Shown here in pieces: positions 1,503-64,000 of a stretch of 64,000 nt of DNA. Origin of the DNA: Taiwanofungus camphoratus. Its lineage: Eukaryota > Basidiomycota > Agaricomycetes > Polyporales > Taiwanofungaceae. The stretch lies in NCBI GenBank assembly GCA_003999685.1, contig CP021221.1, forward strand, positions 2,666,001-2,730,000. The letters are read 5' to 3'. The first letter of the stretch is position 1. Every line of letters starts with the position of its first letter. The notes under the pieces were generated by a model. The model worked only from the letters and a program-made list of their open reading frames with translations, was not told where the DNA came from and did no database searches. Both the position numbers and the translations under genes were made by a program.

Positions 1503-1943
1503 TTTATGATTTCTGTGAAGTGCAAGTGTCCTGCTGCAGAATCGAGTAAAATAAAGCAGGGACCCACGATAAAAGGACGACAGTATGAGTACGATTCGGG
1601 TGTGGGGTCTAGTGGCGGGAAGGACTCCTCGGTCTGCTTCACAAAGTGGCGATGATTTCTTTGTTTCTCATCACGTGATATCAATACTTTTCACCGCGAC
1701 GCGTCGGACCTCTGCGTCGAGGACAGCTTCAAACTGGGTTTCTTTCGCGTTCTCCCTTAAGAAATTCGATTGAAGCCCATGAAGAGCCCAGAAAAAGGTT
1801 GTAGAGCAGAAATTTTTCAATACAAGTCATGATTGGTAGATACACTGGCAGTGGCAGGCACTAATTAAAAGTCCATTAACAGACTACCGTATCATAATAG
1901 AAATAAGATTAGAGTAAGCGTGGCCGACGTGAACTGTGGATCA
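1503..1943. other. intergenic, shared promoter/terminator space
   Basis: About 440 bases between the start of the deubiquitinase gene and the stop of the zinc-finger gene, both on the minus strand. Short open frames occur on both strands but none has a recognisable motif or convincing splice structure. It probably holds the deubiquitinase promoter. Confidence 0.5.
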
Positions 1944-6114: not shown

Positions 6115-7614
6115 TTAGAAGTCCTTCCACTCATCCCAGTCGTCCTGCTTCTTTGACGGGGCTTTTGTGGTGGCTGGGGACGACAGGTTTCCAGTCTGTC
6201 CCAAATCACCGCTGAAACTCTCGAAGAAATCATCCTCGTCCTCATAGTCGTGGTTGAGCGCCGATGTTTCTCCCTCATATCCCGGGTTCACCCGCCCGTA
6301 GCCATTCTTCTCCGGACCACCAGCCACCTTGTCCTTCACGGTACCCACCACACCTCCCACCTGCTGGGCAACGTCTACGCCAAGTGTATTCTTTCCCCAC
6401 ATATTCGCACTGCGGCCAGCCTCCCCTATACGTTTGCCAGCCTCCGACATGTAGCCCTTCACGCCCGCCTGGAAAGTTGGGTCCATGACCTTCTCCATGC
6501 CTGGCTTCACCACGTTCTCAGAGACAGCGCGGGTCGCGCCGGCGATCGCCGCGGAGAACAATGACCATCCTTTACTGAGTGCGGCCGTAGGGTTCTCTTG
6601 AATTTCCGATAGAGAAGGGGCTGCCTTTGAAGATAAGCCGTAAGAGGGATGCTGGCCCCCTGGCGGCGGTGAAGGGGTATTGCCGAAGCCTTGATACCGA
6701 CCGCCTTGAGAAGGAGGCAGGTCTGCGGAACGAGATGCGTTTGCCTGTCCCAGGCTTGTGAAGAAGGACTCGTTGGCTGCCTTGTGGTCTTGGAATGAGG
6801 GTGAATTAGGAGTTGGGCTGGTTGGCGCAGGTGAATCCCTATTATTGAAAGATGCAGGGGAGGAAGAGTCGCTGCGGAGTGGACGACCCGAACTGTTACG
6901 CGTTGAAGCTCGAGACTTGCGAAGTCCTTGTGCAGAGGACGGACGCCCTGGAGGGCTGGCAGAATTGTTGGGAGAGACTGCGCCTTCGGCAGGTGGAGAA
7001 GGTGACCAAGGTTTACTGGCTAATTCGGCGTCTAGCTATTGCCGTATTCGAGTTAGGCGGAAATGCGATGGAAGTATGACCCGTACCTTCTCTCGATATT
7101 GTGAAGCCGCCCAGCAATGATAAGTTTCGGATGGGTTCATACCTTGCTTAAACCCGCCCTGCTCGGCTGGATATGACTGCATGAACTCCCGGAACGGAGC
7201 GTTGCCTCCAAGCTGTTTGGGAAATCGCTGCCATGAGTTGACCAAACCGTAGGATTAAATTTACCGACCTGCATCCGCTTTATTTGATCCTCCTGCCATG
7301 TATCCATCGATACAGACCTAACGAAACTACAGAATTTATGAATGCTATCCGCATTAAATAGACTAATGGTTGGTGGTACTCACCTAATGTGTACGCCAAA
7401 TCCTCGGTGAACTCCCGCGCACTGTAAGCAAAGGAATACTGCAAAGCTAATGCAGCAGTTTGGAAAATAGACTAGATGATCCTGGGCACACGTAGCCTAA
7501 CCTCAGGGAAGCCCATTGGGGATTCGGATTTGAACAGTCAATGCACTTCTTGTTATCGAGACCGTCTCGCTTGATGAGCTCTTGCAATGTTTTCCTTGCA
7601 ACGGCTTGGTCCAT
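6115..7614 (-). CDS. Arf GTPase-activating protein, ArfGAP1/Gcs1 type
   Basis: Stimulates GTP hydrolysis on Arf1 and drives COPI coat cycling at the Golgi (family knowledge). The zinc finger is assembled across an intron: CIDCSNPNPQWAS then VFLCLQCAGVHRGFGVHI, giving the C-x2-C-x16-C-x2-C spacing and the catalytic Arg of the HRG..GVH motif. Further exons give VRSVSMDTW, LGGNAPFREFMQ and ETYHCWAASQYREK. A Ser/Pro-rich linker follows. The C-terminal part (6115-6561) is amphipathic and Gly/Ala-rich, like ALPS/BoCCS regions, and ends in the acidic, Trp-containing DDWDEWKDF, typical of coatomer-binding tails. The start ATG at 7614 gives MDQAVARKTLQELI, the usual beginning. Five or so introns are present. 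The gene is transcribed toward the F-box gene, 221 bp upstream of its start. Confidence 0.9.
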
Positions 7615-8446
7615 GGCTAGACTATGGAGTGCAGCAGTGAATTGAATAGCCGCAGTTGCGCTGTCACCCCGAGTCGCTCTTGGTGAGGAGGCTGGTCACG
7701 ATTTGGCTGAGAATTGTAGGACTCGATTCTCACGGCAATTAGTTCCGATCTTCATAATTATCTTATCGCGTCTATGTAAGTCGGTCTACTTATAAGGCTG
7801 AACAGCAGATCAATCAGATTATCTGAACAAGGCGGTATATGGTGCATTACACAGAACATGGACAAGTGTCTGCTTTCTTGTGCTCATGTAAACCCAGTTA
7901 TTTAATTCAGGCATGGTTCGTGATTGTAGTCGTGCCTGAGGACCGGAGGGTTCTCGCACTGAACGAGATGGGCGCTGTGCAGGGCGCGCAATTCACACCT
8001 TGAACTTCCATCTTCGTGAACATTGCGCTTCCAAGTTTTGGCTGGCGAAGGAGAAGGCCTCGGTTGCAGCTAAAGAAAGTGATAGATTTTCTTGCGTCAA
8101 GAATCGTCCCCACACTTCGCAACGCCTATTTGACCCGACTAGCGTTCTCTATTGTGTTACCCGTCATATCCTTGGACCAAGTCCGACGTGAGAAGTCATC
8201 TTGACAATACAACGGCCTGGTTCACTAGCCGCCATCTTTAGTGGTCCTGAACGCTTCTGTCGACCAGTTGTCTAATCCTCCATTTGTCACTGAGCTGGAG
8301 GCGCCACAGGTTGTCGATGATACAGAAGACGAACGCGCGGGCAAGCAGCACAGCTGTTGCTCCGATGAGACAGGCCTCTACCGGTAATAGTCCTGAATCG
8401 TGGGGTCAGTGGGTTGGGCGCAAGTTAGTTCCATGACTACTTCAAT
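7615..8446. other. divergent intergenic region between ArfGAP and velvet genes
   Basis: About 830 bp between two divergently transcribed genes. It is AT-richer than its neighbours near 7740-7900 and probably contains both promoters. The open frames seen (7907-8122 minus, 8000-8204 plus) overlap one another and show no domain. Confidence 0.5.
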
Positions 8447-46663: not shown

Positions 46664-49603
46664 TCAGCATTGGCCGAGGAAGGAGTTCTTGGGCCACTCC
46701 TGGCCAAAGTCGCCCCGCCACGTCGTGAGGTTCGGGTCCGTGTACGCCTCGATGTACCTGCAAGGCAAGGTGCGTTCGTCAGTCTCTCCGTTCCCCGCAG
46801 ACATGCATGCCAGGTGAAGGGCCCACTCGTCGATGTACGCCGCGGTCGGGAAGTCGGGCGGGTCGCACCCGATGTTGATCGCGCCCTTCGGCTGGTACAC
46901 GCGGATGTAGTCCACGCGCAGGTGCACCGGGAACGGCATGCTCCCGAGGTCGATTTGCCCAAAGTTGTACGACATGCCGAGGTTCATGATGATGTACTGA
47001 CGATACACGTCACGGTCAGCATTAAGGCTGTTGCGGATAGCAAACGAGAGGGCAAAGTCAAGGCGCCGGGACCTACCATGGGCTCCTGCGAGACTGGCCG
47101 GGACGAGATCTCCACGATAGGGTCCGCAACCATGCCCGCGACGTTGAGCGTCCACGAAATCTTGTTATTCGAGATCCACGTAATATACTATCACCGCATC
47201 ATCTCGTCAGTCTCCCCCTCTCCACCGCAAGAAAGCAAGACGCACCGCGTCGTCGAACCCGGGCTGGTACTGGAACCCATAGATCGAGTAGCACCCGGCC
47301 TCGTACTCGTAGCAGTCCGGGTCCGTGTCCGTCACGACGCTCGTCGCCTGCTGCTCGACGCCGCCCGTGTACGTGTTCTGCACCGAGATCGACGCGTCCG
47401 CGATCTGCTCGTTCGCGCTTGTGTTCAGCCAGATGTACGCGTGGTTGAACGGCTGTGCGCGCCGACCCACACCCGCGTCCACAGCCCGTCAGCCGCCGGT
47501 CACTCCCCGCGAGAACGGAGACGGGACACTCACCGCCCATTGCGCGGACTGCGAGACCTGCGCGGTCAGGGGCGTGCCCGTGATCTGCGCCTCGAACATG
47601 TCGATCTCGGGCGCCGCGCGTCCAACGAACGTCCCGTCGCTGTGCTTCGGGCCCGGGTGGCGCTCGCCCGGGCACGTGCAGCGCGAGAGCTTCTGCCCGG
47701 GCAGGTACGAGAGCACGCCGTCGTGCCCCGCGTCGCCGTTCTCCGTCGCGGCGACGGGCTGCCCGTTCAGCGTCTGATTCGGCGCGGTCCCGACGTCGCA
47801 CGCGTCGTACGTGTACGGCCACTGGGTGGGATGCGTGGCGTCGGCGGGGATGGGGCGAGGAGAAGAGCTCTGAGTCAGGGGGATCAAGGCGAGGGGAGGA
47901 ACACGCGCACCATGCCCTCGAGCGTCGCGCCGTAGCCTGCGCGGCCGAGGTTGCCCATTGTCCAGATGGCGGGCCAGAGCCCGACGACGTTGTTCATGCC
48001 AGGGAGGGAGACGTTCGCCTCGATGTAGCCGCCGGTGAAGCAGAACTTGTTCCACGTCGACATCATGCCTGGGCGGCCACGGCGTCAGCTCCAGCTCTCC
48101 TCCCGCTGCCCGCGGCGCACTCACCGCCCTGGTACTGCAGATTATGCGTGTCCTTCTGGCTGAGCGTGATGACGAGGTCGCCGCCCTGGGTGGTGATCGC
48201 CGACGGGTCGTACCACTCCAGGTTGTTCGTCGCCCAGTAGTGGAGGTCGACGGCCTCCCAGTACGGGTCGTCGCCGGGCCAGAACGTGCGGCCATCGGTA
48301 TTGAACTCGTCTGAGAAGACGAGCGTCCAGTCGGCGCCGTCACGCCAGTTCGGCTTGGTGTGCGCGGCGGCGGGCGTCGCGTCGTCGATGAGCCCAAAGT
48401 TGCCGGGGATCTTGGGCACCTGGCCCGACGCGTTGATCCCGCCGAGGTTGTACGCGCCGAGCGTCGAGTAGCGTACGGACGTGAAGTACGTGATGATCGG
48501 GTAGCCGGCACTGTGCGGGCGCGGGCGCGGGCCGCGGAGCACGGCGTTAGCGGCGATCTCCTCGCAGGCGACAGAACAGGAATCGGATTACGTATGCGAT
48601 GTGCGTGTCCGCCTCACCGATGGCAGGCTGCGATCGGCGCGCCGGAAGTGGCAGCGAGAATCGCGGCCGGCACGGGGCTATTTCTAGAACGGGCGGGCAC
48701 CCCGGACGTGCTACCAAAGGCTTCTGAGGCAGTTCTCCGTGCTAGAAGCGTCTCTTGGCACGTTCCCGACCTATCGCCCTGCGCAAGCCGTCGTGATAGC
48801 TGCTGCTGCGGGCACCTTCCAGGCGAGTGGCGTGGGCCTCGCGTCTCGAGGCGTATTCAGACAGTCGAGAGGCTCTCTAAACACGCCTCTAGATCCGGAG
48901 CCCCAGGCGTCGCCGTCACGTAAAGCAGTCAGCACAACAAGGATCGTGCCGAAATAGCCTTGGGTGGCACGGTCCATGGGAACCATCCTGCTGTGACTAC
49001 TGCCGCAGCACGGGTGCCCAAGCAAGAGCCCTCTGGGCGATTGTTCTGGGAAAAAAAAGTCAAGGATGGAGACTCACAAGAACGCCAGGAGGACTACGAT
49101 GAGCAGCACGAGGCCGCCGAGGTTGACGAAGCCGCGCCACGAGAGGACATGGCCGCCGCGCTCGATAAGCCGCGGTTTCTCGTCCGGGTCGGGCGCGTGA
49201 AGGTCGTCGTCGGGCTCGTTCATGCCTGGCGAGAAGGCGGCGCCCCATTCCTCTGGGTCTGCAGAGAGCGGGTACTGTCGCGCGGGCTGTGAGGGAGACA
49301 CGGACCAGATGCAGCGCGCGACTCACTTCGTGCCCGAGAGAGAGCGGCCGGCCTGCGCCCAGGTACGGCGAGTCGAGCTGCAGAGCATTGGATGTCATGT
49401 TTTTTTCTCGAGATGGAGCAGACGAAAAGACGGACCGCAGAAGAGGAGGGGGTGCTGCCGACGCTGGCGAAGCTGTGTATGCGGGCTGCGCCGGCGAGGA
49501 GGGGGGAGGTGAGGAGGCTGGAGGAGGAGGTGCGGGGGCGGTAGCGGTCGAATGTCTTCTGGCGACGGAGGTCGGGGAGGGACATGGCGGAGGAGGTGGC
49601 CAT
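46664..49603 (-). CDS. Kre6/Skn1-type beta-1,6-glucan synthesis protein (GH16 fold)
   Basis: A type II membrane glycoside hydrolase/transglycosylase of the secretory pathway, needed for cell-wall beta-1,6-glucan (family knowledge). The start is ATG 49603 ([16 protein letters not shown]); this frame has the coding-like third-base GC, unlike the overlapping frame from ATG 49680. Cytosolic Ser-rich region, then [34 protein letters not shown] and the membrane helix [17 protein letters not shown]. After a 567-nt intron come [30 protein letters not shown], the GH16 active site [12 protein letters not shown] (E-x-D-x-x-E), [38 protein letters not shown] and [10 protein letters not shown]. It ends [15 protein letters not shown] at 46664. 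About ten exons, about 690 residues in total. Confidence 0.9.
48511..49077 (-). other. 567-nt intron of the Kre6-like gene
   Basis: Donor GTGAGTC follows the membrane helix, and acceptor CGCACAG precedes AGYPII. Splicing restores the family's LLAFFAGYP junction exactly. It is about ten times longer than most introns in the window. Confidence 0.75.
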
Positions 49604-50518
49604 GGCGGAGGGAGGAGCGATGGCGCAGAGGCAGCAGCAGGACGCGTCCAAGTCGAGCGTCTAGAATAGGGAATCGCCATTTCTCGGGATCCGGCGTGCT
49701 GCAGAAAAATGAAAAAGGGCGGAGGATGGGTTTCGCTGCCAATGGGAAGCACACATGACGTCAGTGTGTGCCCTGCAAAGCTGAGTGCCCCCTCGCTAGC
49801 TAGCAATGACGCCGCGCACTGCAGCTGTTGCTAGCGACGTGCACCCTGTTACCGCACAACGCTGCCCTGCGTAACGACTCGCCAGTCCCTTCACGGCGGC
49901 TGCCCCGCCTGCTGCAGAAAGTGGGAGCATGGTGGGTAAGGTTTGATAGAAGGCCGGCTGAATGTGTTCCTCAGAATCATTCCCTTATCGGGACAAGGGC
50001 CAAGGTATCTCACCGTATCTCGCGGACACCCGTCCTATTTTTGGACAAGGCCTAGACCGTGCCCGTGCCTGCCCATGTGTGCTTGTCTTCATGTTGCGGA
50101 ATGCACCTATCCACAGTATTAGCCTGGTCTCGACTTGCAACACAATCTCAACATGGAGATGCTTGCTGTGCAAGACTGTCATTGACTCATACCAGTGTTT
50201 CCCAATACTGTTGCTTGAATAGCTTCACATCAATGTCACAATAATTGTGCCCAGTTGAAATAGACCATCATTTGTTATTTCTTGGTCCTGGCACTCCTGT
50301 CATTGTTGCTATCAAGCTTGGGTCCTGCTTCCAGCATCCTCCATTGTTGTTGCTGAAATTGCTTGTGCTTGGAAAGCTTGATATACTCTGTTTACATTAC
50401 TTAAACCCAAACAACTCAGTGTGCTTGTAGCCTATTATTTCCATATGCAAGCACATCTTCACTGCCTTCAGTTGTCCAGCAGCTGCTTTGCCTATTGAGC
50501 ATGTCATAATGGGTCATA
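49604..50518. other. upstream region of the Kre6-like gene, no gene seen
   Basis: About 900 bases. Near the Kre6-like start the DNA is GC-rich and polypyrimidine/polypurine biased. From about 50000 it becomes AT-richer and borders the repeat block. Short open frames have no domain. Confidence 0.5.
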
Positions 50519-50650
50519 CTGATAGAAATTGGTATCCTATATTCTATTGCCTAATGAGGGCCTGACTCCAATAAAAAGGAGTGATGATGAGTTTTACGGT
50601 GATGAGTCCTATAGTCTCTTGAGCTCTAAATCACGATTTTAGGAGCTTTC
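50519..50650 (+). repeat. decayed LTR fragment related to the element A LTR (virus-like fossil)
   Basis: The sequence from 50519 begins like the element A LTR at 52817 and shares the same words (AAATTGGTATC, CCTATAT, GGGCCTGAC) in the same order for about 60-100 bases, then fades. Differences are mostly C-to-T or G-to-A. Probably an old solo or truncated LTR. Confidence 0.55.
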
Positions 50651-50929
50651 TAATCCTCTCACAGACCATCCTATGACTCTTCTACAGCCTGTGACAAGTG
50701 GGATAGGTTCCTATGATGCTCCTAACATCTACCTTGCCTTCTAAACCCTTCTAACATCCTATGAAGTCCTGCAAAGTCACATGAGGTGCTATGAAGCTTT
50801 GAACGCTAGCTACAAAGTCTCTAACTCTTGCTAAGTCCACTATTGGACACTGCTGGCCCTCTCATATTGTTCTATTGGGTCCAGGTCCCAGCTACTACAT
50901 CATCCATCCTGGGATTAGCTAGGAAGGCT

Positions 50930-51400
50930 TAGCTAAGTCTCTTCAATCCCTTGTGACTGCAGGCATCTCTGATAGTCTCCAAAATGGTCTGAAGTGCCAA
51001 AGGCTGGACTTAGGAAGCCTTGAGCACCCTCTGAATCTCAATCCTATGCCACAAGGTCCTTCTATGGTGCATCCATATGATCCCCTACCTATTTAGGATG
51101 TCTCCTACTTTGATTTGGACAAGTCCTGCTGGTAGAAACTTTATACACCATTAGCCCACTATGACAGTTGATCACGGTGTGTGGCTGCTCTCTGATAGCC
51201 ATCCCGCTCTCATGGGTGATCTTGGTCACCTTTCTACCAGTCAATGCACATTAGTACACATTTTGGACTTGTAGGGACCACTTCACGCAAGAATAGTTTA
51301 CCTCACCCTCTTCTATTTAGTCAGAGATAGTTGACTATGTAAGACAAAGATCCCTCAGTGCATGCTTTCCCCTTTAGAATACAAGTTCTCCTGTAGCTCT
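50930..51400 (+). repeat. inverted repeat X, copy 1 (CpG-poor)
   Basis: This stretch matches the reverse complement of 52330-52800 almost continuously, for example TCCATATG, CACCTTTCTACCA, GCAAGAATAGTT, CTATTTAGTCAGAG and GAATACAAGTTC shared in order. Where the other copy has CpG, this one usually has TpG or CpA. The family is unknown; no coding motif is seen. Confidence 0.8.
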
Positions 51401-52329
51401 GATGATACACTGATACGACCTAGGGAGTCCTGGACTGTGGGGATAAACCTAGGGAGTAGGTCTGATGCGCTGATACGACCTAGGGGACCCTGGTACCTAG
51501 GGAGTGCTCTGCAACGTGGCTGTGGGATAGTGTGATAACTGTGAGGATGTGAGGGTAGGAGCTACAACCTGTATGATACCGGGAAACCTGTATGTCTTGT
51601 TTTTGTAAGTAGGGGAGTAAGGGGTCAAGGGTCCTGCACAACAGGATCTTGTTCCTAAGTGCTATACTATCCCTAAGGCCTTGCGAGGCCCTCCGAAGTA
51701 CGCAAAGTCCTTCGCAATTCTGCGAAGTCCTTCGAAGTTTTTAGCTAAGTCGCATGAGCTGACTTCGTAGATGCTGCAAAGTCCTTTTAGCTAGAGTTAG
51801 CTAAAGGGCGTAAGGCTTAGAGGTTTGTTAGAGCAAGGTTTGGCTAGCGTAGGGGACCTGTAGGAGAGGTCGGAGAGTTCGGCGAGCTAATACTTGAAAT
51901 AGAAATTGGAGAACGAGGTTGCTGGAAGCTCTGAAGTGCCTGATGACCTCGGGGTGTAGGTCAGAGAGTTTGAGGGCGTAGAGAGATGTACTATAGCCTG
52001 TAACGAAGGCTATGAGGGAGTCATAGGGTTATTCGTAGGACGTAGGAATGACGCAACGTGAGCCTAAGGGTATAACTAAGGCGGAGGCCCATCGGATAGG
52101 TGCTATAAGAGGTGCTGAAGGGCGCGAAGTCACGGCGACTTCGTAGATCGTAGTGCGTAGTTCGGGAAGCGTAGACATGGTTCGTAGATATATCGCGAGC
52201 GTAGATGTAGTTCAAAGGTACTGAAACGGAGCTGGGGTGGAGACTTAGGGGCCTTAGGACCATTCCTAAGGTTGTACTCGTGACGCTTTCCTGAGATCGG
52301 AGCTACAGGGGAACTTGTATTCCGAAGAG
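51400..52329. other. spacer between repeat arms with short internal repeats
   Basis: It contains two copies of CTGATACGACCTAGGG (51405 and 51469 region) and, near 51680-51830, several words built on AAGTCCTTCGAAG and TTAGCTA. Much of it looks like non-coding transposon sequence. An 80-codon minus frame at 52021-52263 has no domain. Confidence 0.5.
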
Positions 52330-52800
52330 AGAAGCGTGCACTGAGGGGTCTCTCTCGTACATAGTAAACTACCTCTGACTAAATAGGGGAGCGTGAGGTG
52401 AACTATTCTTGCGCGAAGTGAACCTTACGAGTCCGAAATGTGTACTAAAGCGCATGGGCTCCGAAGTGAACACGAGGAGGATAGGAACTAAATAGGAACT
52501 GAAACAGGGGAACTACGTATGGTAGAAAGGTGACCAAGTTCATTCACGAGGGTGGGATGACTATCCGAGAGCAGCCATGCGTCGTGATCACCCATCTTAG
52601 TGGGCTAAGAGCGCACAAAGTTCTTAGCAGCGGGACTTGGCCTAATCGGGGTAGGAGGTGTCCTAACTGGGTGGAGGGCCATATGGATACGCCCTAGGAT
52701 GACCTTATGGCATAGGATCGAGACCCATGGGGTGCGCAAGGCTTTCTAAGTCCAACTTCCGGAACTTCGGACCGTTTCGGAGCCTATCGGAGGTAGCTGC
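52330..52800 (-). repeat. inverted repeat X, copy 2 (CpG-rich)
   Basis: Inverted relative to 50930-51400 with the same order of shared words. It keeps more CpG sites than copy 1. Its edge lies within about 20 bases of the element A LTR at 52817, so A probably landed in or next to this repeat. Confidence 0.8.
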
Positions 52801-52816
52801 AATCACAAGAGCTAGG

Positions 52817-53292
52817 TGATACAAATTGGTATCTAGGATCCTATATGTTGCCTCACACGTAAGGGCCTGACCACGATAGAAGGTGGCGAGGTCTTATGGT
52901 CGATATAGACCGGGTGTCGTGAAGTCTGTAGACTCGAGCGAGTATCACTCAGATGTGAGCGAGAGGATACAAGACACAAATATAATGGTAACAAGATCAG
53001 ACTTAAGGTCTGAGCTAAGCTAAGTACATGCTATAAATACTAGTACGTATCGTGAGCACGGACCAAGAACTACTCCAGGGCAGGAGGTCCGTAATATGGT
53101 ACGACTATAGATAAATGCGAAGTGGTACGATCCGGGCGTATTAGCAATACGTATGAGTGATGAGGAATGTGGTAAGCGGCCCGGATATGAGTCAGAGTCC
53201 TATGCGTAAGCGGGGCCGATCCGGGGCCCGTATAGTAATAGTCCATGTGTAAGCAATGACTGTGGTAATGACAAGAAATAGAAATTGTATCA
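52817..53292 (-). repeat. 3' LTR of element A (Ty3-type chromovirus fossil)
   Basis: A 476-bp block beginning TGATACAA and ending TTGTATCA on the plus strand, perfect 8-bp inverted ends of the TG..CA type. On the minus strand it is preceded by a purine tract (GTAAGGGGGTAA), as expected for the 3' LTR of a minus-strand element. The partner LTR would lie beyond the right edge of the window. Confidence 0.75.
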
Positions 53293-53560
53293 TTACCCCC
53301 TTACTAAGGTCGATCTCCGAACGACCCTACTTGATTTTCCGTTAAATAAAATGTTCGTCAGCCATGCGGGTGTTTCACCGCGTACCATGAGGGTGTTCCA
53401 CCTCGAACCTGGAGAGTGTTTCATCTCGTACCTTGTGAAACTAACAACGACCGGGTAAGGACCCACGACATCGTGTTAGCTTCGTGCAATGTAGGCATGT
53501 GGGCGGCTGGGTAAGGACCCAGCACCGCTTGCAACCTACCGCCTCAAGCAAACAGCACCC

Positions 53561-54970
53561 CTACTGTTCACCATCACCGTAATCCTCAAACCCATAGTCG
53601 TCCCACTCATTGTCGTTCATATAGGAGTTTGAGGGCGGGTCGTAAGTCCCGCGGCGGTAAACAGGTGGTGGAGAAATGATAGGGGGGACGTGATAACTGG
53701 ACGGGGGGGGTGGGATAGCTGGGGGAGGAGTGAATCGGCCATCAGGGCCACGAGTGAAGGGGCCAGTACTTGCCCCGGGTTCTGTGAGGTGCTGGTTGGG
53801 CGGTATGCCCGGTCCTGACAAATGGTTGTGTGATGGCTGGGGTGCGCGTGCGTGAGGGTAAGGCGTTTCGGTCCGTGATGGACCGGCTGTTGCATTGGTG
53901 CGAGGGGCGGATGGCCCGTTGCCTCTGGGACGGGACGGAACGGGGGGGAGGAGTTGCTCCCTTCTAGACATAAGCACGCGTGGAGGATTGGTGGCGGACA
54001 TGACGGGGATGGGTGTTTGTGTGGGGCGGTGAATCGAGTCGACCAGCTCGCGGCGACGACCCTCTCCTGGGGCAGGTAAGATGGGCGGGGCAGAGGCGTG
54101 GCGTGCCATAGTGCATTCTCGGGATAGATGTCCCGGGGCAGTGCGATGGCACCTCGCACAGGTATAATCCAGACAGTCACGTACCCAGTGCATCATACTG
54201 CCGCAAGCGTGGCAGCGTCCCCGAGGTCTCCAGTTGGGTCCAGGGCGCATATAGTTCGGGAGGGAGTCGATTCTACTAGGTACGGCCCCAATGGATTCTT
54301 GTCCGGCCTGTGTGTCGATGAAGGTTTGCAAAGGGTCCTCGGGTTCGGGTGGCGGGGTAGGTCCGCGTATAACGATATCAGGCTGAGATCGTCGTATAAA
54401 CCTGGCGTGACTGGTTCGTCGGTGCGGAGAAATCATGTCCTGGAGGTGACGAGCCATGGACATATCGTCCATCCTTCGTAGGGTGCGGACCACCTTGAAG
54501 TCTAACTGCCGTATTTTGTTCTTCCATATGGCGAGCTGCTCGGTTGCGTCGTCCACCGCTCCTAAATACTGTAGTCTAGCGTCGATGTATTCCCCGAATG
54601 CCTCCTGTTCGTCCTGGTTGTTTCGTGTATTTGGTAAGGACCCCAGTAGTCGTGCAATGTCTCTCGAGTGTCGAATTAGGATGTCGAGGAGGGTTGGGTC
54701 CACGTCGTAGATGCAGCGCGGGTAGTAAATGACATCGGCTTGTCGGGGTAGAGCGCCTTCTCCTGGTGCGGGATTGTGGAAGTGTGCGGCGGTTTGGAAC
54801 CCAAAGAGTGGACCATTCCCATTGGATGCCGAGGATCCCGATGACGAGGACGTTATAGCCATGGGAGATGTGGCTGTCTGAGGTGTGCGAGTAGCGCGTC
54901 GGGTAGCAAGGAAGGCGCGGGCTCGGCCACGAGCGGCAGCTTGAGCGTAGGTGTTGGACTGACGAGGCAT
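53561..54970 (-). CDS. Element A post-pol ORF with two CCHC zinc knuckles
   Basis: An open frame of 469 codons between the pol end and the 3' LTR. The N-terminus is Ala/Arg-rich (AQAAARGRARAFLATRR). A helical region follows (DPTLLDILIRHSRDIARLL and AVDDATEQLAIWKNKIRQLD). Two knuckles lie near 54.10-54.22 kb: CHACGSMMHWVRDC (C-x2-C-x4-H-x4-C) and CARCHRTAPGHLSREC (C-x2-C-x6-H-x4-C). A long Pro-rich tail ends in an acidic, aromatic stretch. It resembles a Gag-like nucleocapsid in layout, but its place after pol is unusual. The function is unknown. Confidence 0.7.
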   Translation of the reverse strand: MPRQSNTYAQAAARGRARAFLATRRATRTPQTATSPMAITSSSSGSSASNGNGPLFGFQTAAHFHNPAPGEGALPRQADVIYYPRCIYDVDPTLLDILIRHSRDIARLLGSLPNTRNNQDEQEAFGEYIDARLQYLGAVDDATEQLAIWKNKIRQLDFKVVRTLRRMDDMSMARHLQDMISPHRRTSHARFIRRSQPDIVIRGPTPPPEPEDPLQTFIDTQAGQESIGAVPSRIDSLPNYMRPGPNWRPRGRCHACGSMMHWVRDCLDYTCARCHRTAPGHLSRECTMARHASAPPILPAPGEGRRRELVDSIHRPTQTPIPVMSATNPPRVLMSRREQLLPPVPSRPRGNGPSAPRTNATAGPSRTETPYPHARAPQPSHNHLSGPGIPPNQHLTEPGASTGPFTRGPDGRFTPPPAIPPPPSSYHVPPIISPPPVYRRGTYDPPSNSYMNDNEWDDYGFEDYGDGEQ

Positions 54971-55012
54971 GTTGCGAGTGGGTGGTAGTTCGTCTGAAGG
55001 AGTGAACTGGTC

Positions 55013-55618
55013 TTAGCCCGAGTTCTTTCTTCCCTTATATGCTCCTAGGAGCTCCTCCGCAGTACCGGCTAAATTCGCTTCCGGTTCCCATGAGTCGTCG
55101 GCCGAAGAGTATCCTTTCCACCTGACCCTATACTCACGGCGTTTTGTCCGTTGATTTTCCCGATGTCCGATGATGGCTTCGACTTCGTAGTTATCTTCGC
55201 CTTCGATAAGTTCCGGGGGTGGCCTCGTGTAGTTCTGGCCATGGATCTCCGTCTCTGTATATGGTGATAGAAGGGCGGCGTGGAAAACTGGATGTACTCG
55301 CCATGTCTTCGGGAGTTTCAGCTTGTATGAGACCGGGCCTAGGACTTCAATGATTTCGAAGGGGCCCTCTCTCTTGGGTGCCAACTTCCTGGAAGGGTAG
55401 GGTAGCTTTAGATTCCGAGAGTCGAGCCAAACCTGTTGTCCTTTGCGAAAACCTTTCCCTCGTGGTTTGATCCGTTTTGCCAATACCGCCTGGGCTAACT
55501 CCATCGCCGCGTGTGCTTGTTCTCTTATCTTCTGGAGGTTCTTCAGGCGATAAGCCGCGCCGGGTGTGTCCGATCCCTTGTGTACGACGGGGATTCCTCG
55601 CGGTTCGAAGCCCATCAT
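55013..55618 (-). other. Element A pol 3' part: integrase C-terminus and chromodomain
   Basis: The minus-strand reading includes KGFRKGQQVWLDSRNLKL, the GPFEIIEVLGPVSYKLKLP segment common in Ty3 integrases, HPVFHAALLSPYTE, and a chromodomain with YEVEAIIGHRENQR and RVRWKGYSSADDSWEPEANL. The chromodomain suggests targeting to modified chromatin (family knowledge). It is interrupted at its upstream side by the LTR of element B. Confidence 0.9.
55614..55618. repeat. target-site duplication of element B, left copy
   Basis: ATCAT directly before the LTR; the same five bases follow the other LTR at 63343-63347. Confidence 0.9.
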
Positions 55619-56118
55619 TGTTACCGGGGGGTTCACCCTGATAATGCTGCAGAAGCTTGGAGCGGTGTGCAGCGAAGGGTCGAAGAGGAGCGACGGTGAC
55701 GACAAGTCACGATCCTCGGTAGTCTTCAACTACAAGCCCTATGTAGTCGCGATAGTCTTTCACGGGCTTCTTGCGGTGCAAGGAGATGTGTGAAGACTAG
55801 CGTGTATTGGTACTAATGCGTAGTACACTTTAGGAAGGATGAACGAAGAGAATACGACTAGGGGAACCTCCAACAGTGGGACTCCCCTTTATACTGCCAC
55901 CATCAGCCCCCAGGTATACTAGCAGCCCCCCAGAGACCGCATAAGGTGAGAGGAGTCAGCGGCCCGAAAGTACATAACTACCATGGCGTAAGCGGGGACG
56001 GTCGGCCCGTCAGTCAATCTGGGTAAATAAGGTGTGGAAGGGATGCCGCGCGTCCATGGTGTGACAAACAAAGGGAAAGAAAAAACGAACACGTCTCTGG
56101 TCCTATCCGACAGTAACA
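55619..56118 (-). repeat. LTR of element B, left copy (3' LTR)
   Basis: 500 bp beginning TGTTAC and ending GTAACA (plus strand), nearly identical to 62843-63342 with about one difference seen. A polypurine tract (minus strand GAGAGGAGACGGGGGTAG) adjoins at 56119-56136, which makes this the 3' LTR of a minus-strand element. Confidence 0.95.
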
Positions 56119-56159
56119 CTACCCCCGTCTCCTCTCAGGTGTCGCCCCGACACCTACCT

Positions 56160-56966
56160 TCATGACCTGGTAGCTTCCTCGTCAGGCTGCTTCGACCCAC
56201 TGATTTCCGACCAGGCAGCCCCTGCCTTGGGGCATTGGTCGGTGTCGTGATCGTCAGCGAAACAATCCAGACAGCGAGGCGGGACGAAGGGCTCAACAGC
56301 CGGCTCCCCCAGTCGTGGCCGGTGGATGCAATCAGCAGCAACGTGATCGAGGCCCATGCAGAATTCACAGGCCCCAGCCCATCAGTCCAGGGGGCGGCAC
56401 TCGGGGTGGAGACAAACTGTCCACTCGTCCTGCGTGGAGGGGGCTGGGCGCGTGATGACGGAGGAGGGTGGTAGGAGATGCTCGAGGGCGGAGACGACGT
56501 CGGTGCGAAGGAGGAAATTCAGATGGGAGCGCGTAGCATTACAGGCCTGCCAGTACGATATACCAATTTCCCGGATGGGGCTGGCCCACCATTTGGCTTC
56601 GTCATGCTCTCCCTTCTCCCTCTCCCCTCTGTACCCCCTTATTACCTGATCGAGGTGTAAGACGACCTCGGCCTGATGTCGAAAAATGGCAACCTGGGCC
56701 GCAAGATCGGGCCAGACAACGAGGGTGGTGTCCACCGCCGGGCGTAGTCGTTCGTTGGCCAGCACCCATCCGAGACGGTCGGCGGGGGTCAGAAAGTCGG
56801 CGGCGAGGCCAGATGTTGCTTGGCGAGGTAGGGGGACGACAATCCCCTCGGTGAAGTTGGGGAGGTTCTGCGGTCCCCGAAGAAAGGGATTCAGTGTGCG
56901 GGCATTCCCTGCGGTGAGGATGGAGGCGGCAAGGTGGGCTCGGGCGGCGTTGGTTCGATGGGACAT
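56160..56966 (-). other. Element B post-pol region with two CCHC knuckles
   Basis: Between the chromodomain end of pol and the 3' LTR there is coding-like sequence. A helical part comes first (RTNAARAHLAASILTAG, LDQVIRGYRGEREKGEHD), then two knuckles near 56.2-56.35 kb: CEFCMGLDHVAADC and CLDCFADDHDTDQC, both C-x2-C-x4-H-x4-C. It parallels the post-pol ORF of element A in position and layout. Function unknown. Confidence 0.7.
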
Positions 56967-59900
56967 GGTGGGAGGCGGCTTTGAAGTGCTGCGGAATGGC
57001 TCCTTGCAGGGCAGTTGAACGGTTGTTGACTGGGTTGATGCCTAGGTGGTTTGCCTTCTTATAACGCCTCAGCAGGTCAGGGGAATGCCGTAGATCATCT
57101 TCCTTCTGCCAGGTGCTGGCAGAGACCGGCCATCCCTTCCATTTGATGAGAAACTCCCATTTCCCACGTCGGGCACGATGCCCGCGGAGGGCCTCGACTT
57201 CGTACTCTTCTTCCCCCTCGACCAGATCAGGTGGTGGTTTCAGAAAGTTGGGTCCGTGTTCCGCTGTTTCCCTGTATGGGGTGAGCAGCGATGCATGAAA
57301 CACCGGGTGAATCTTCCAGGTTCTCGGGAGCTGTAGCTTGTACGTCAGTGGCCCCTTGACTTCCGTGATCTTGAAGGGTCCAAGCCGCTTTGGGTCAAAT
57401 TTCCGACTTATTGTCCTTAGCCGGAGGTTCGTGGCTTCTAGCCAAACCTTGTCGCCTTCCTGGAAAGGTTTCCAGGGAAAAGGGGTTCGTTCCTCCATCA
57501 GCTTCTGGGCTAGCTCTTGCGCTGCAAGAGCCTCTTTGCGGGATTCGGAGATCTGGGTCAGGCGGTCTTGGAGCGTGGGGTATTTGTCGGAGGGTCGTGG
57601 AGATCCGATGGCCTTCGGGTCGTACCCCATGGTGAGCTTGAATGGCGATTCCTTCCTTCCAGCATGCGGCACCTGGTTGTGTGCGAATTCGAACTCGGGG
57701 ATGTGTTTGACCCAGGTGTGGGGGTCATTTGCGCATAAGATTCTCCAGGCCGCCTCCAGTTCCTGGTTGACCCGTTCTGTACTCCCATCTGATTGGGGGT
57801 GGTAGGCAGTGGACATTGCCGCCTTGACTCCTGTCAGCTTACACCATTCTCGAAATGCAGCCGCTGCGAACTGTGGTCCTCGGTCGGATATCATCCGGTC
57901 AGGTAGGCCATATCGCCTGTATACATTGAGGTGTAGGGCCTCTGCCGTCCCTACCGCATCTATGTTCTTGGTGCAGGGTATGAGCACAATGCCCTTGGTG
58001 AGTTCTCTGTCAACCACTACCATGAGCGCATTGAAGCCCTGTGACTCTGGTAGGTCAGTGATGAAGTCTACTGATATGTGCGAGAATGGCCTTGAGTTTG
58101 GCTCTGTGGGGATGGCCATCAGGGGGGGTTTCGTTGGGTGTGTGTTGATCTTGCTCTCCTGGCATTTGGCGCACCCCTCAACATATTTCTCGATGAATGA
58201 AGACATTCCATGCCAGAACCAGTCCCTTCGGGCGATGGCCATTGTACCTTGTGCCCCTGGGTGTGCCATTGCTGGTGTGTCATGACAGAGTTGAATGACT
58301 TCTCGGCGCAGATCATCATCAGGGGGTACGTAAACTCTGTTTTTGTATAAAATTAGTCCCTCCTGAATGTCCCAGTCTGCCAGCTTTGTGTGCGCAAAGC
58401 CTGTGCCCTTGAATGGCGGTACCTTCCCCCGTTTTAAAGCGTCAATCGTCTCGATGACCATCCTGTCACGGGTACGACATTCACGTATCTTTTCGATGAT
58501 TGCAGTGTTGGTGGCGTTGACAAAGAGGTCTGTTGGTAACAGGATGACATCTTCGTTGTCATGTTTCCCTCCTGGGTGGTCAGGTCGCCGGGAGAGTGCA
58601 TCGGCGACTATGAGTCGACTGCCTTTTTTGTTTAATAGTTGCAGGTCAAATTGTGACAGGAATAACTGCCATCGGGCCTGGCGTCGGTTGAGTCGTTGTG
58701 CTTCTCGGAAATAGGTGAGGTTCTTGTGGTCGGTGATCACCGTGACCGGATGTCCACTTCCCTCAAGGTGGTGGCGCCATTCCTCAAGTGCTCGGACAAT
58801 GGCCAGCAGCTCTCTGTCATATACTTGATAATTCCGCTCCGCTTCTTTCAGGCTCTTCGAGAGGAAAGCTATAGGGTGTAGCCGCCCTTCTTCATCAAGT
58901 TGTTGAAGCACTGCACCAGTGGCTACCAGAGAGGCGTCGGCCTCAATGGTGAATGGTTTGGACGGGTCGGGCATGCGAAGGATAGGCATGCTCTGGAAAC
59001 ACCGTTTGAGCTCGTCAAAGGCCTCCTGGCAGGCTTTGGTCCAGTTCCACTCCGCGCGTTTCTTCTTGATGACATTCAAGGGGTGAGCGATGTGGGAGAA
59101 GTTGTGGATGAAGCGTCGGTAGTAGTTGGCGAGACCCATGAATCGTTCCACATCCTTGACCCTAGTAGGAATGGGCCAATCTGCGATTCCTGCCAGTTTG
59201 TCCTTGTCCATGTGCACCTGTCCAGGTGAGATGGTCATTCCCAAGAAGTCAACTTCGACGACATCGAACGCGCATTTCTCTGGCTTTACAAATAGATCCC
59301 ATTCCTGCAGCCGTTGTAGGACGCGTCTGGTTCGTTCTCGGTGGGCTTCCATATTGTCGGAGAAAATGAGGATGTCGTCCATATAGATCGCGATCCACCC
59401 CTCGGCCAGCATGTCCTGGAACGCGTCATTCATCATTCGCTGAAACGTGGCCGGCGAGTTGCACATCCCAAAGAACATGACAGTGGGTTCGACGATCTTG
59501 TCCTGATTCCCATGTTTGACCATGAATGCTCCTTTCCATTGATCGCCCTCTCTGATCCGGACGTTGTTGTACCCGTTTCGGAGGTCTAATTTAGTGAACA
59601 CAGTGGCCCTTTGGAGCCTGTCGATTAGCTCTCCTATGAGGGGTAAGGGGTAGGCATCTTTGATCGTGCCCTTGTTCAGGTATCAGTAGTCCTGGCACGG
59701 GCGCAAGGTACCATCCTTTTTTTTGACAAAAAAGGCTGGTGACGCCATTGGTGAGTTCGATTCTCGGAGATAGCCCTTGGCCAGGTTTTCTTCCAAAAAT
59801 TTGTCCATCGCTGCCTGTTCATTTGGAGACAAAGGAATTACGGCGCATTTTCTGGGGACAAAGTCTGGCCTTAATTCGATGGCATGGTCCCAGGGCTTGG

Positions 59901-60720
59901 ATTCTGGGAACCGGTTGGCAGCCTCCTTTTCAAACAACCGTTTATAGTCCCACAGGTATTCTGGGACAAGGTCTTCTACGGATGGGGGTGGGTCCTTGGG
60001 GATCACCAATTCCGTAAACTCTGGGACATCCCATACCATACGTGGGGAGTCAGAGAAGCGTGTTAGTCGATTGAGCCCTAGTTGTGTGGGCTTTAGGGCC
60101 TGCAGTAGCCCGTCTTCACGTATGAGCGGCTGCCCTTTCTGTTGGAAGATCCCCAGAACCCCTTCTCCTTGTGTGTAAGCACACATTATGTCCGAAAGCT
60201 CCTCATCGTCTTCATGAATGGAAGCTCGACACAGGGGAATTCCGTCTGTCGTGGGTTGGCTCATGATCCAGGCATAGTATCCTTGCCATTCTGTGAGTCG
60301 AGCTTGGTCAATCTCGAGCGTTCCTTCTACCCAGTCGATGCGTGGGTTGACTTGTGCGAGCCAGGGGTTGCCGAGTACTACATCGAGCGTTCCAATGTTT
60401 GAGACATAAAAGTTGGTTGGGATGTCATTCCCCTCTAATCGTATGCTCCCTTCGACTCTGTGGGTAATCGGTCCCCCTTTGTTTGTAGAGCCATCAATGG
60501 TGGTTGAGGTTACTGTCCTGGGAAGCGGTCGAGTGGGGAGTCCCCACTTCCTTACAAAGTCGGGGTGAATTAGGTTGGCGTCAGCCCCACTATCCAATAA
60601 GGGGCATGCAGCGACGGCTTTCTCTCCTACAACGATGTAACCCGGTAGATAAAGTGTATTGCGCTTGCGCGTTCCGGTAATTACATTTCGTACAGAGAGT
60701 TTAGGCGACTCGTGCGTCAC
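56602..60720 (-). other. Element B pol region: protease, RT, RNase H, integrase, chromodomain
   Basis: The protease motif is LLDSGADANLIHP near 60.58 kb. The reverse transcriptase has FTKLDLRNGYNNVRI and the catalytic IAIYMDDILIFS near 59.38 kb. The RNase H has FTIEADASLVATGAVL and TDHKNLTYFREA. The integrase has the HHCC zinc part (HPGAQGTMAIARRDWFWHG, CAKCQESK), [25 protein letters not shown] and [36 protein letters not shown] region and a chromodomain (YEVEALRGHRARRGKWEF, LIKWKGWPVSASTWQ) follow. The order is the standard Ty3 one. Confidence 0.93.
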
Positions 60721-60731
60721 GTCGGGTCGCC

Positions 60732-62226
60732 TTACAGAAAATCCACAAAGTCGTGGTGCTGAGAGAAGTGGGGGAATCTTACTCCTTTCGTTTCTTGCCC
60801 CTGCTCCTCCTGCTCAGAGGCTTCATCATCCGCCTCGTTTTCATCTTTCATGTTGGCCCTTCGGTTTGGGGGTCCTGTTCCCCGACCTGAGGTTCGCTCT
60901 GGGCAGTCTTTGGCCAGGTGCCCCTTATTGTGGCATTTGTAGCAGGAGCCCGTCCTTCGGTCTTGCAAGCGCTGATGGTCTGGCTTCCCACTGTCAAATG
61001 CCCTTGCTGCGACTCGTGGAGGGGTTTTCGAAGTTCTTTGAGCAGCATCGATGGCCTTGTTGTTTCGATAGGCCCGGTCCCGTTGGGCAGCAGCTTCCTT
61101 CCATCCTTCTAGGGTTGTGGGGTTCTACATCTCGTTCCATGATTCGGACTCGCATGGTGCTGGGTAGTTTTTCTCGGTACCAGGCCATAAGGGCACTTTC
61201 TTCGGTGATTTCTGCCCTGTGGGCCAGTCGGTCGAACTCCTCGTTGAAATCGGCAATGGGTTTGTCGTAGGTGTAGACCAAGTTCCGTAGTTCGATGGCT
61301 GCAGAGACCTCCTCCTCTATTACCCCGAACCTTTTGATGAACTCGAGAGCGACATTCCTGAAAGTGCCGTACCCCCGGCTCACCCCTCGGATGAGGGGGT
61401 GGGGTTCGAGTGCCTTTTCGGTGAGAGTATCGGCCCAGGCACCAGCATGGCCTTCGAGGTGGCCAAGGAAATTGCCGACCTTTTCTCGTTCGGAAGCAGA
61501 GGCCCATCGCTCGGTGTCAAATCTTCGGGCAAATTGGATGAGGAAGTGTCGGGCATCCTCTCGCTTTCCAGAGAACTTAGTAATTTCTGGCTCTTTTCGG
61601 TCCGGTACCCGTGCAGCTCCCTGTGGGAGGGGCGTTCCTCCAGACGGCTGCCCTCCCCCAGGGGGTCCTCCTCCCCCAGGTGGTCCTCCTCTACCGGGTA
61701 GTCCTCCTCCACCGGGCACTCCTCCGCCAGGTGTTCCTCCTCCGCCAGGTGGTCCTCCTCCACCAGGTGGTCCTCCTGGGGGTCCTCCACTCTCGTCATA
61801 AGGTGGTCCTCCCTCGAGGGGGCCTTCCTCCCCCAGCCCATCGTCAGGCGGTGGCCCTGATTCCCCTATTCCTGATCGGAAAGAGCTCAAGCCACGGGGT
61901 GTTTCCGGGGTGGAAGGGGATGTTTTTCCTGTCCCTTCAGTCTCCATTTGTCGTTCTGTCTGTTCAATGTCAGGATCGGTTAGTTCTGAGCTGGAGCCTT
62001 CGTCGGAGGGTGGGTCGGTTTCGTCAAAGGTTGTCCAGCGGGCCTGGATGAGGGCACGATTGGTTGGAGTACAAGGTTCGAAATCACTTCCCCTGTAGAG
62101 TGCAGAGTCGTAGCGGTGAGGGCACGGTTGCGTTGAGCAGACCCTCCAGTTAGAAGTCTTCGTGTAATGTCGGTGTACGTCCCGATTGTTCTCCGCTTGA
62201 TAGCGATGAGCCTTCCCGGCGCACAT
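60732..62226 (-). other. Element B gag region
   Basis: The reading starts with a variable acidic region, then a Gly/Pro repeat-rich stretch (GGGGPPGGG-type, about 61.63-61.80 kb) and the capsid-like part KITKFSGKREDARHFLIQF-type segment, with NLVYTYDKPIADFNEEFDRL. The nucleocapsid knuckle CYKCHNKGHLAKDC lies near 60.92 kb. This is the usual Ty3/gypsy gag layout. Confidence 0.85.
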
Positions 62227-62842
62227 CAGGGTCGACCTCCGCCTCGTTTTGGAGGATGGATCCAGCTTGCCACCGGCGATAGAAATCTCGGGCGCTCAGT
62301 AGCCTTTGATATAGGTTCACGATTATGGGAACGGCCAACTGAAATGAGAAACGTGGGTTTGAGAGCACCTTCTGAGCAGTGAGGATACGGTGGTCAAGGA
62401 CTTCGTCAAAATCTTCAGAGGGAGTGGGAGGTAGTGGTCGGCTCCCTTCCCTACTTGCCAGCCTGTCGTGATTTTCTAATACAGCTTGCCAAGCGTCGCT
62501 GGCTCTGGAGATGCGGGAGCGGGTGTAAAGGATCAGCTCCCTCTGTTCAGCTGGGAGGAAGCTGGTGGAACTATCGGCATGGAGAATGGCTCTGAGGTTG
62601 CGCTCAGCTCGATCCAGGACCTCTTCTAAAGTCGGGAGAGTAGGGTCAAATGCTGCGTGATCCAGCTCTTCTTCTTGTTCGTAGTCGATATCAAAAGGTC
62701 GTTGATAATCCGTGGTGATCAGTACTAATCTTATGAGTACGCTGACCTCGCCTTCTTCGAGACCGGTACGGGTCTTTTAGGCACTGTCTTCTTGTGACCT
62801 CTCGAACCAGGACGGGTTCGGGTTTGTGGAGTCGTATTCTAG

Positions 62843-63342
62843 TGTTACCGGGGGGTTCACCCTGATAATGCTGCAGAAGCTTGGAGCGGTGTGCAGCGAA
62901 GGGTCGAAGAGGAGCGACGGTGATGACAAGTCACGATCCTCGGTAGTCTTCAACTACAAGCCCTATGTAGTCGCGATAGTCTTTCACGGGCTTCTTGCGG
63001 TGCAAGGAGATGTGTGAAGACTAGCGTGTATTGGTACTAATGCGTAGTACACTTTAGGAAGGATGAACGAAGAGAATACGACTAGGGGAACCTCCAACAG
63101 TGGGACTCCCCTTTATACTGCCACCATCAGCCCCCAGGTATACTAGCAGCCCCCCAGAGACCGCATAAGGTGAGAGGAGTCAGCGGCCCGAAAGTACATA
63201 ACTACCATGGCGTAAGCGGGGACGGTCGGCCCGTCAGTCAATCTGGGTAAATAAGGTGTGGAAGGGATGCCGCGCGTCCATGGTGTGACAAACAAAGGGA
63301 AAGAAAAAACGAACACGTCTCTGGTCCTATCCGACAGTAACA
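62843..63342 (-). repeat. LTR of element B, right copy (5' LTR)
   Basis: 500 bp, TG..CA ends, nearly identical to 55619-56118. Gag begins inward from it on the minus strand. Confidence 0.95.
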
Positions 63343-63347
63343 ATCAT
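63343..63347. repeat. target-site duplication of element B, right copy
   Basis: ATCAT directly after the LTR end, matching 55614-55618. Confidence 0.9.
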
Positions 63348-64000
63348 GACTTTAAATGGCGACGCCTTGATCGTCGAATGTTCCCTGGAGTTGTGAGCAA
63401 ATTGTGCTGCGCCGAGTAAAGAAGACCACCTATCCGGACTGTTACTTGTGAAACACCGAAGGTATACTTCGAGCTCTTGATTTACCCGTTCCGTTTCTCC
63501 GTCCGTCTGAGGGTGGAAAGCCGTGCTCATGGCAGACTGCACTCCTGTCATGCGGCAAAGTTCTTGGAATACCTTTGACGCGAATTGTGGTCCTCGATCG
63601 CTGATTATCTTGTCTGGGAGTCCAAACCATTTGTAGACCTCGTTGTAAAGAAGTTCCGCCGTTCCTTGCGCGTCAATGGTTTTGTTGCATGGAATGAAAA
63701 TTACCCCCTTACTAAGGTTGTGGTCCACTACGACCAAAATCGAATCGTAGCCGTTGGAAAGGGGTAAGTCCATGATGAAATCGCAACAGAAAGTGCTGAA
63801 TGGTGTAGCGTGAGCAGCGGCTCGGATAGGGACGAGGGCGGGACGGTCCGGGTGAGTGTTGACCTTCATTTGTTGACAAGTAGCGCAGCCGTGAACATAT
63901 CGTGCGACGAAGTCGGCCATTCCAGGCCACCAATAGTCCCTTCGTAGAGAGCTTAGGGTTTTGGTAATTCCAGGATGGCCGGCGTGTGGGAGGTCGTGAT
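63348..64000 (-). other. Element A integrase core (continues beyond the window)
   Basis: The minus-strand reading shows the zinc-part end [18 protein letters not shown], the core [17 protein letters not shown], the [17 protein letters not shown] motif and [16 protein letters not shown], with the three acidic catalytic positions of the DDE core in place. It runs into the element B insertion at the FKVM motif on its lower side, and beyond base 64000 on its upper side. Confidence 0.9.

Follow-up and report, generated by a model that had tools for sequence, protein, structure and literature searches.

Open reading frames located downstream of pol (ORF3s) are a known kind of gene in long terminal repeat (LTR) retrotransposons, and their zinc-knuckle form in fungal chromoviruses looks little described. 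Here, we analyze genes of this form in a 64,000-nt stretch of the basidiomycete Taiwanofungus camphoratus (assembly GCA_003999685.1, contig CP021221.1, positions 2,666,001 to 2,730,000; hereafter, the window), where two chromoviruses, elements A and B, each carry a post-pol region with CCHC knuckles (ORF3-A and ORF3-B), and in related families, A2 and C, of the same genome (33.2 Mb searched, 15 contigs). The nearest functional analogue found would be CERV of the Cer1 element of C. elegans (PMC10309623), which, in the part of that paper available to us, acts on genomic RNA (nuclear export), as is proposed below for ORF3. CERV is produced from a spliced five-exon mRNA and has some GAG peptide sequence in its N-terminal half, unlike ORF3; CCHC is mentioned in the same text for GAG and not for CERV, and the likeness drawn here is one of function.

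Family-specific post-pol ORF3s, several of them non-envelope and one type gained at least twice, have been described in LTR retrotransposons of bdelloid rotifers (PMC5408684); those listed in the available text are of GDSL esterase, DEDDy exonuclease, transmembrane, coiled-coil or env types, with no zinc-knuckle ORF3 among them, and one element, Juno, has an extra Zn knuckle inside its pol region. For fungal Gypsy elements, mostly chromoviruses, the Figure 3 legend of Novikova et al. 2010 (PMC2864245) lists an "add. ORF" of unknown function, which is likened to ORF3 by the wording of that legend and not by place or sequence; part of the feature may already have been drawn there. The portion of that paper at hand gives CCHC in Gag and dUTPase as an extra domain. 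Llorens et al. 2009 (PMC2774666), as far as their text was available, report additional genes in one fungal chromovirus clade, one of the references cited being a dUTPase paper, and the words zinc, knuckle and additional ORF are absent from the main text of Muszewska et al. 2011 (PMC3248453). Plant LTR retrotransposons have extra ORFs beyond gag and pol, as here (PMC7264820, in the part available); CCHC, zinc, chromovirus and fungi are absent from the main text of that paper. In the open-access literature, subscription journals being outside the search, we found no report of fungal chromoviruses with a zinc-knuckle gene after pol. Retroviral and retrotransposon nucleocapsids likewise carry CCHC knuckles, which are paired in A, A2 and B; the nucleocapsid, however, is the C-terminus of Gag, whereas ORF3 is a gene of its own downstream of pol, and the elements that carry it have a knuckle in Gag as well.

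A selected gene between pol and the 3' LTR

It had been claimed in the first-pass annotation, made from the sequence alone, that an extra CCHC region follows pol in both elements, on the element's own strand and before the 3' LTR. Both regions were confirmed at their coordinates (Table 1), and the one in element A is indeed an intact ATG frame of 469 codons. ORF3-A consists of an N-terminal part, two CCHC knuckles and a Pro-rich tail with an acidic end, and it matches Pfam zf-CCHC at 27.7 bits (cut-off 20.8). In the window, 45 nt separate the first base of the pol stop codon from the ORF3-A ATG, and the frame ends before the 3' LTR. The genome contains at least 37 full-length matches of 85-100% identity, 23 of which have no stop codon; these numbers, together with the strong purifying selection described below, indicate that the frame is more than chance. 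It should be noted that all ORF3 copy numbers given here are lower bounds.

Among the 14 interrupted full-length ORF3-A matches, 13 contain TGA alone. Internal stops in ORF3 matches of the described families are mostly TGA, with few TAA and TAG. The bias is compatible with the pattern that C-to-T change at CGA codons would give.

We estimated the ratio of nonsynonymous to synonymous substitution rates (dN/dS) by the Nei-Gojobori method on pairs of copies that are not independent. For 14 ORF3-A copies (91 pairs), the median dN was 0.063, the median dS 0.529 and the median dN/dS 0.115 (range 0.070-0.186). In the same six A copies, dN/dS was 0.106 for gag, 0.097 for the last 480 codons of pol and 0.109 for ORF3, a comparison limited to copies with a readable gag (7) or pol end (8); purifying selection on ORF3-A is as strong as that on gag and pol. 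The other two sense frames across ORF3-A gave ratios of 1.76 and 2.35, and the antisense frames 1.39, 3.07 and 0.189, the last of which is read as ORF3's own constraint because its third positions coincide with those of ORF3. The six mini-ORF3 copies of family A2 had a pooled ratio of 0.127. For ORF3-B, the comparison of the high-copy type with four diverged copies gave 0.15-0.22, a rough estimate at a dS of about 1.0-1.4, and one distant pair in family C was saturated at synonymous sites. Thus, the post-pol ORF is real, a selected accessory gene of LTR retrotransposons, and the conserved family 3' of pol with dN/dS below 1 that the annotation had looked for exists within this genome.

The ORF3 lineages are also old. 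LTR pairs of element A are 96.7-100% identical in 8 of the 10 copies (in L027 the pair is unclear, with one 2.4 kb repeat at 87%, and in L030 likewise, with an 85% pair plus 112 nt at 98%), but ORF3 copies differ by about 0.5 synonymous changes per site, so that these are young copies of old ORF3 lineages. It follows that the constraint acted during the life of the element, over many rounds of transposition.

Selection is uneven along the protein: the pooled pN/pS of ORF3-A was 0.222 for residues 1-75, 0.119 for 76-200, 0.082 for 201-248, 0.045 for the knuckles (249-295) and 0.229 for the tail. This distribution bears on the idea that ORF3 is a counter-defence protein, e.g., one that suppresses RNA silencing or the transcriptional silencing of the element. 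Retroelement accessory genes often act against the host, and this general precedent speaks for it, as does the TGA bias of the interrupted ORF3-A matches, compatible with C-to-T pressure on repeats. No domain evidence supports such a function, however, and slow evolution, slowest in the knuckles, would be expected less of an arms race than of a protein acting on the RNA of its own element, so that we regard counter-defence as quite unlikely.

The gene is tightly linked to pol. All 45 A-type pol ends (at least 89% identity) have ORF3-A downstream, in 41 cases 72-75 nt beyond the end of the query match. For more distant A-like pol ends (63-85% identical), 84 of 88 have an ORF3 match within 2 kb downstream, which is the short form in 75 and the long form in 10, one of these having both; some long-form matches lie more than 1 kb from these ends and may be coincidence. 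These counts used all 150 scored pol ends among 290 candidates. On the B/C side, an ORF3 lies within 1.5 kb of 114 of the 118 pol ends (ORF3-B in 64, ORF3-C in 50, both in none), and four have neither; the 118 were taken from 150 scored rows (326 candidates), the excluded 32 being A/A2-type ends, 46-48% identical. Conversely, orphans with no scored upstream pol end amounted to 2 of 60 ORF3-A, 3 of 78 mini-ORF3, 6 of 70 ORF3-B and 10 of 60 ORF3-C matches. The rows used were 60 of 94, 78 of 131, 70 of 118 and 60 of 111, respectively; excluded were second fragments, knuckle-only and other-family matches on the A side, and fragments and other-family matches on the B/C side. With dozens of copies tied to pol, a host fragment present in single copies does not describe these genes. 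The more general view of ORF3 as a captured host gene fragment or useless passenger found no support apart from the orphans just listed; purifying selection equal to that on gag and pol, the linkage to pol and the retention of a short form in A2 all contradict it, and we consider it hardly tenable.

ORF3 is likewise distinct from Gag. Of ten A copies with a 5' side, seven (L021-L027) carry near the 5' LTR an open gag that includes a knuckle of its own (CFYCHNRGHS[AS]RDC), followed by pol (whole or in pieces) and by ORF3 with its knuckle pair; in L030 the gag frame stops inside the knuckle, in L028 and L029 the gag region is lost or rearranged, and ORF3 is present in all ten. A blastp comparison of ORF3-A and ORF3-B with the gag of A, A2 and B and the start of the C gag-pol gave nothing convincing: the best match (E 2e-4; ORF3-A 283-429 vs. 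B gag) was mostly Pro-rich and obtained with the low-complexity filter off, and the remaining ones had E 0.008 or worse. A displaced gag was rejected on these two grounds, and the claim that the region encodes an additional product and not a moved gag holds, in the window for element B as well.

A subtler version would make ORF3 a second, minor Gag, i.e., a nucleocapsid (NC)-like structural protein co-assembled in the particle, perhaps from an ancient gag duplication. The long N-terminal part followed by knuckles recalls the capsid-NC layout of Gag, and A2 keeps the knuckle (NC-like) part alone. Against this stand the lack of a convincing match between ORF3-A or ORF3-B and the gags, and N-terminal folds that are not confidently predicted: AlphaFold2, run on single window sequences without an alignment, gave a mean predicted local distance difference test score (pLDDT) of 41 and 40, too weak to use. 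Compared with solved structures, ORF3-A had a single match at E 0.89. We consider a second Gag unlikely, while taking it seriously.

ORF3 families, their kinship and expression

Elements A, A2, B and C are Ty3/Gypsy chromoviruses, with the order reverse transcriptase (RT)-RNase H-integrase and a C-terminal chromodomain. Pfam RVT_1, RNase H, H2C2, rve and Chromo were matched in B, C and A2, and the chromodomain and integrase in the window part of element A, which is what the scan covered. Flanking LTRs are present in A (pairs), B (500 nt) and C (571 nt, identical). Older copies, A', are about 77% (pol) and about 50% (ORF3) identical to A; A, A2 and A' form three supported pol clades, distant from B and C.

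In element B, the annotation had seen a coding-like post-pol region with two knuckles. The frame with its two knuckles stands, with at least 33 uninterrupted matches of 277-314 codons elsewhere in the genome; the window copy, on the other hand, is broken at codon 195 (stop at 56384-56382), upstream of both knuckles. ORF3-B overlaps the end of pol, and its first 121 codons permit a direct comparison: the ORF3 frame gave dN/dS of 0.15-0.16, whereas the pol-tail frame gave 2.1-2.5 and contains stops in three of the four diverged copies. Therefore, ORF3, and not the pol tail, is the constrained frame there. Family A2 carries a mini-ORF3 of about 84 codons, i.e., the knuckle pair with short flanks, which has at least 78 genome matches (61-100% identity), 64 of which contain no stop. 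In family C (L041), gag and pol are fused in one frame of 1667 codons that includes a gag-side knuckle and a chromodomain; the family's ORF3-C has at least 41 full-length matches, 29 of them stop-free. The paired knuckles reported for A and B thus hold for A, A2 and B, and family C departs from the rule with one. Both knuckles are kept in 14 of 14 A, 6 of 6 A2 and 7 of 8 B aligned copies; the eighth B copy (L046) ends earlier.

The annotation left it undecided whether the feature was shared from old or gained repeatedly, and our comparisons answer this in part. Genome searches and sequence comparison show the ORF3s of A, A' and A2 to be homologous. For B and C, the comparison of N-terminal parts by hhalign gave a probability of 97.1% (E 1.3e-10, a single comparison), the ORF3-B genome search retrieves C-type genes (best 6e-11) and the ORF3-C search retrieves B-type genes (best 5e-10), and both proteins share LRPxxDTxLxxWPDL; by these sequence similarities, the N-terminal parts of ORF3-B and ORF3-C are homologous. 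In contrast, hhalign of ORF3-A against B and C, with full sequences and with N-terminal parts alone, yielded no match (the A profile being shallow), and after one A' row was added to the ORF3-A profile, the knuckle alone aligned to C, at 20% probability. With the relation between A and B/C undetectable, either there were at least two gains of the feature, or a single gene has diverged so far that its kinship can no longer be recognized. Most simply, A2 would have arisen by losing the N-terminal part and the tail, a view that rests on parsimony and on the similar protein starts: by reading, the start of the mini-ORF3 protein resembles that of ORF3-A.

Some further loci should be mentioned. L038 contains two A2 copies with a common 1.8 kb direct repeat (1-1824 and 6539-8342, 97.5%), as would be expected if they stood in tandem with a shared LTR. 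In L034, the mini-ORF3 is followed by short tandem repeats, of which its 3' flank may consist. L037, retrieved because of a weak knuckle match, was set aside as copia-like by reading; it has a single frame of 1424 codons (1443-5717) with identical 415-nt repeats on both sides, and is likely a recent insertion.

The position of the start codon is informative with respect to expression. Measured from the first base of the pol stop, the ORF3 ATG of 15 A copies lies at 44 (1 copy), 45 (9), 46 (4) or 47 nt (1). All three frame relations thus occur, an argument for an independent start and against read-through or frameshifting. ORF3 as a part of Pol made by such recoding is suggested by the nine copies, the window's included, that are in the pol frame at 45 nt, where read-through of one stop would fuse the two; the six copies in the other two frames speak against it, as do the common B type and C, in which the ORF3 ATG is placed within the pol frame and the pol tail is free of constraint. 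We consider this explanation very improbable. The pol frame continues past the ORF3 ATG for 362 nt (L010), 116 and 425 nt (the diverged copies L042 and L043) and 521 nt (C); an ATG inside the pol frame argues against simple termination-reinitiation in the common B type and C and favors a separate mRNA; probably, their ORF3 is translated from an mRNA of its own or a spliced one. Where the ATG follows or overlaps the pol stop, as in A and A2, termination-reinitiation is possible. The overlap was seen in all seven A2 places examined, the ATG being in frame with the mini-ORF3 in four of the seven (by reading). A splice-acceptor-like CAG between the pol stop and ORF3-A is absent in some copies.

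An envelope-like gene, as found in many ORF3-bearing LTR elements, would occupy the same position. However, there is no hydrophobic stretch of membrane-span length, the maximal 19-residue Kyte-Doolittle means being 0.70 for A, 1.42 for B, 1.37 for C and 0.01 for the mini-ORF3, and the proteins have zinc knuckles instead. Env was rejected on this hydropathy, with neither a transmembrane nor a fusion segment, and we give the idea practically no credence.

Organization of the window

Element B is inserted into the integrase region of element A (Table 1). A perfect 5-bp target duplication, ATGAT, lies on both sides of element B, the element for which the duplication was examined, and the insertion is recent, since its LTRs differ at 1 of 500 sites. 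The ORF at 55013-55729, which contains the end of A pol, continues into the B LTR, so its A portion is given in the table. A large, imperfect inverted repeat at 50937-52822 (arms of 303 nt, 76%, and 165 nt, 83% complementary, about 0.9-1.3 kb apart) extends to the outer boundary of the element A 3' LTR. Farther away, at 46667-48542 on the minus strand, there are pieces of an SKN1/KRE6-type beta-glucan synthesis gene (Pfam PF03935) in separate frames, which perhaps reflect introns. An Rfam scan of window positions 50000-64000 gave no match.

Table 1. Coordinates of the ORF3 genes and of the two nested elements, counted from the first nucleotide of the window
Feature	Position	Strand	Basis or remark
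ORF3-A, post-pol gene of element A, intact 469-codon ATG frame	53561..54970	-	ORF list, copies, selection
ORF3-A knuckle 1, C-x2-C-x4-H-x4-C, CHACGSMMHWVRDC	54173..54214	-	Pfam and pattern
ORF3-A knuckle 2, C-x2-C-x6-H-x4-C, CARCHRTAPGHLSREC	54113..54160	-	Pattern
3' LTR, element A	52817..53292	-	Downstream of ORF3-A
Element A pol 3' end (SH3-like and chromodomain), downstream of B insertion	55013..55618	-	Pfam
Element A pol, integrase part, upstream of B insertion	63343..64000	-	Pfam; remaining A outside the window
Element B, whole insertion within element A integrase	55619..63342	-	LTRs and target duplication
3' LTR, element B, 500 nt	55619..56118	-	
5' LTR, element B, 500 nt	62843..63342	-	One mismatch vs. 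3' LTR
ORF3-B, post-pol gene of element B	56160..56966	-	Starts at 56966; overlaps pol frame; ORF list, copies
ORF3-B knuckle 1	56328..56369	-	Behind the stop in the window copy
ORF3-B knuckle 2	56232..56273	-	Behind the stop in the window copy
Element B pol (RT, RNase H, integrase, SH3, chromodomain)	56602..59601	-	Final ~120 codons overlap ORF3-B, other frame
Element B protease and start of RT	59683..60720	-	ORF list, Pfam
Element B gag-side knuckle, usual place, CYKCHNKGHLAKDC	60903..60944	-	
Element B gag (Retrotrans_gag)	60994..62226	-	Pfam

Proposed role and meaning

In our judgement, several chromovirus families of this genome probably have in ORF3 a genuine third gene, encoding an accessory zinc-knuckle protein that serves the life cycle of the element. 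In Gag nucleocapsids, such CCHC knuckles serve to bind nucleic acid, and those of ORF3 would bind the RNA or complementary DNA (cDNA) of the element; this is supported by the fact that the knuckles are the slowest-evolving part and the part kept by A2. The protein would then act in trans, beside Gag, on genomic RNA, and might serve in its export, packaging or protection or in chaperoning reverse transcription. The N-terminal part may be an oligomerization or partner-binding module, dispensable in one lineage.

Several observations weigh against this interpretation. ORF3-C has a single knuckle and is near neutral (isoelectric point, pI, 7.2), and ORF3-B is acidic overall (pI 5.8), both unlike a typical basic nucleocapsid; the structure predictions mentioned above lend no help. 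Among the 150 scored candidates, one chromodomain match (C4:1112775) falls outside all described families, and no relatives of ORF3 outside this genome were confirmed in viral and prokaryote collections. Nor does ORF3 begin deep within the pol frame in every B-type copy: in the diverged B copy L046, the other frame stops 14 nt after the ORF3 start and the start codon is not ATG, while L044 has stops in both other frames 71-76 nt ahead of the ORF3 start.

A broader proposition is that a large group of fungal chromoviruses has post-pol knuckle genes as a permanent, modular component, gained at least twice and encoding a Rev- or CERV-like regulator with the knuckle pair as its core. We put this forward tentatively and think it somewhat less probable than its opposite. 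That A2 shed nearly all else suggests that the knuckle pair is the essential core.

The main limit of these conclusions is that they rest on one fungal genome. Within it, a selected third gene is found in four high-copy families, along with a natural short form that approximates the knuckle core. These ORF3 families are a ready system for asking what retrotransposons need beyond Gag and Pol, and they offer a way to name CCHC proteins in annotated fungal genomes.

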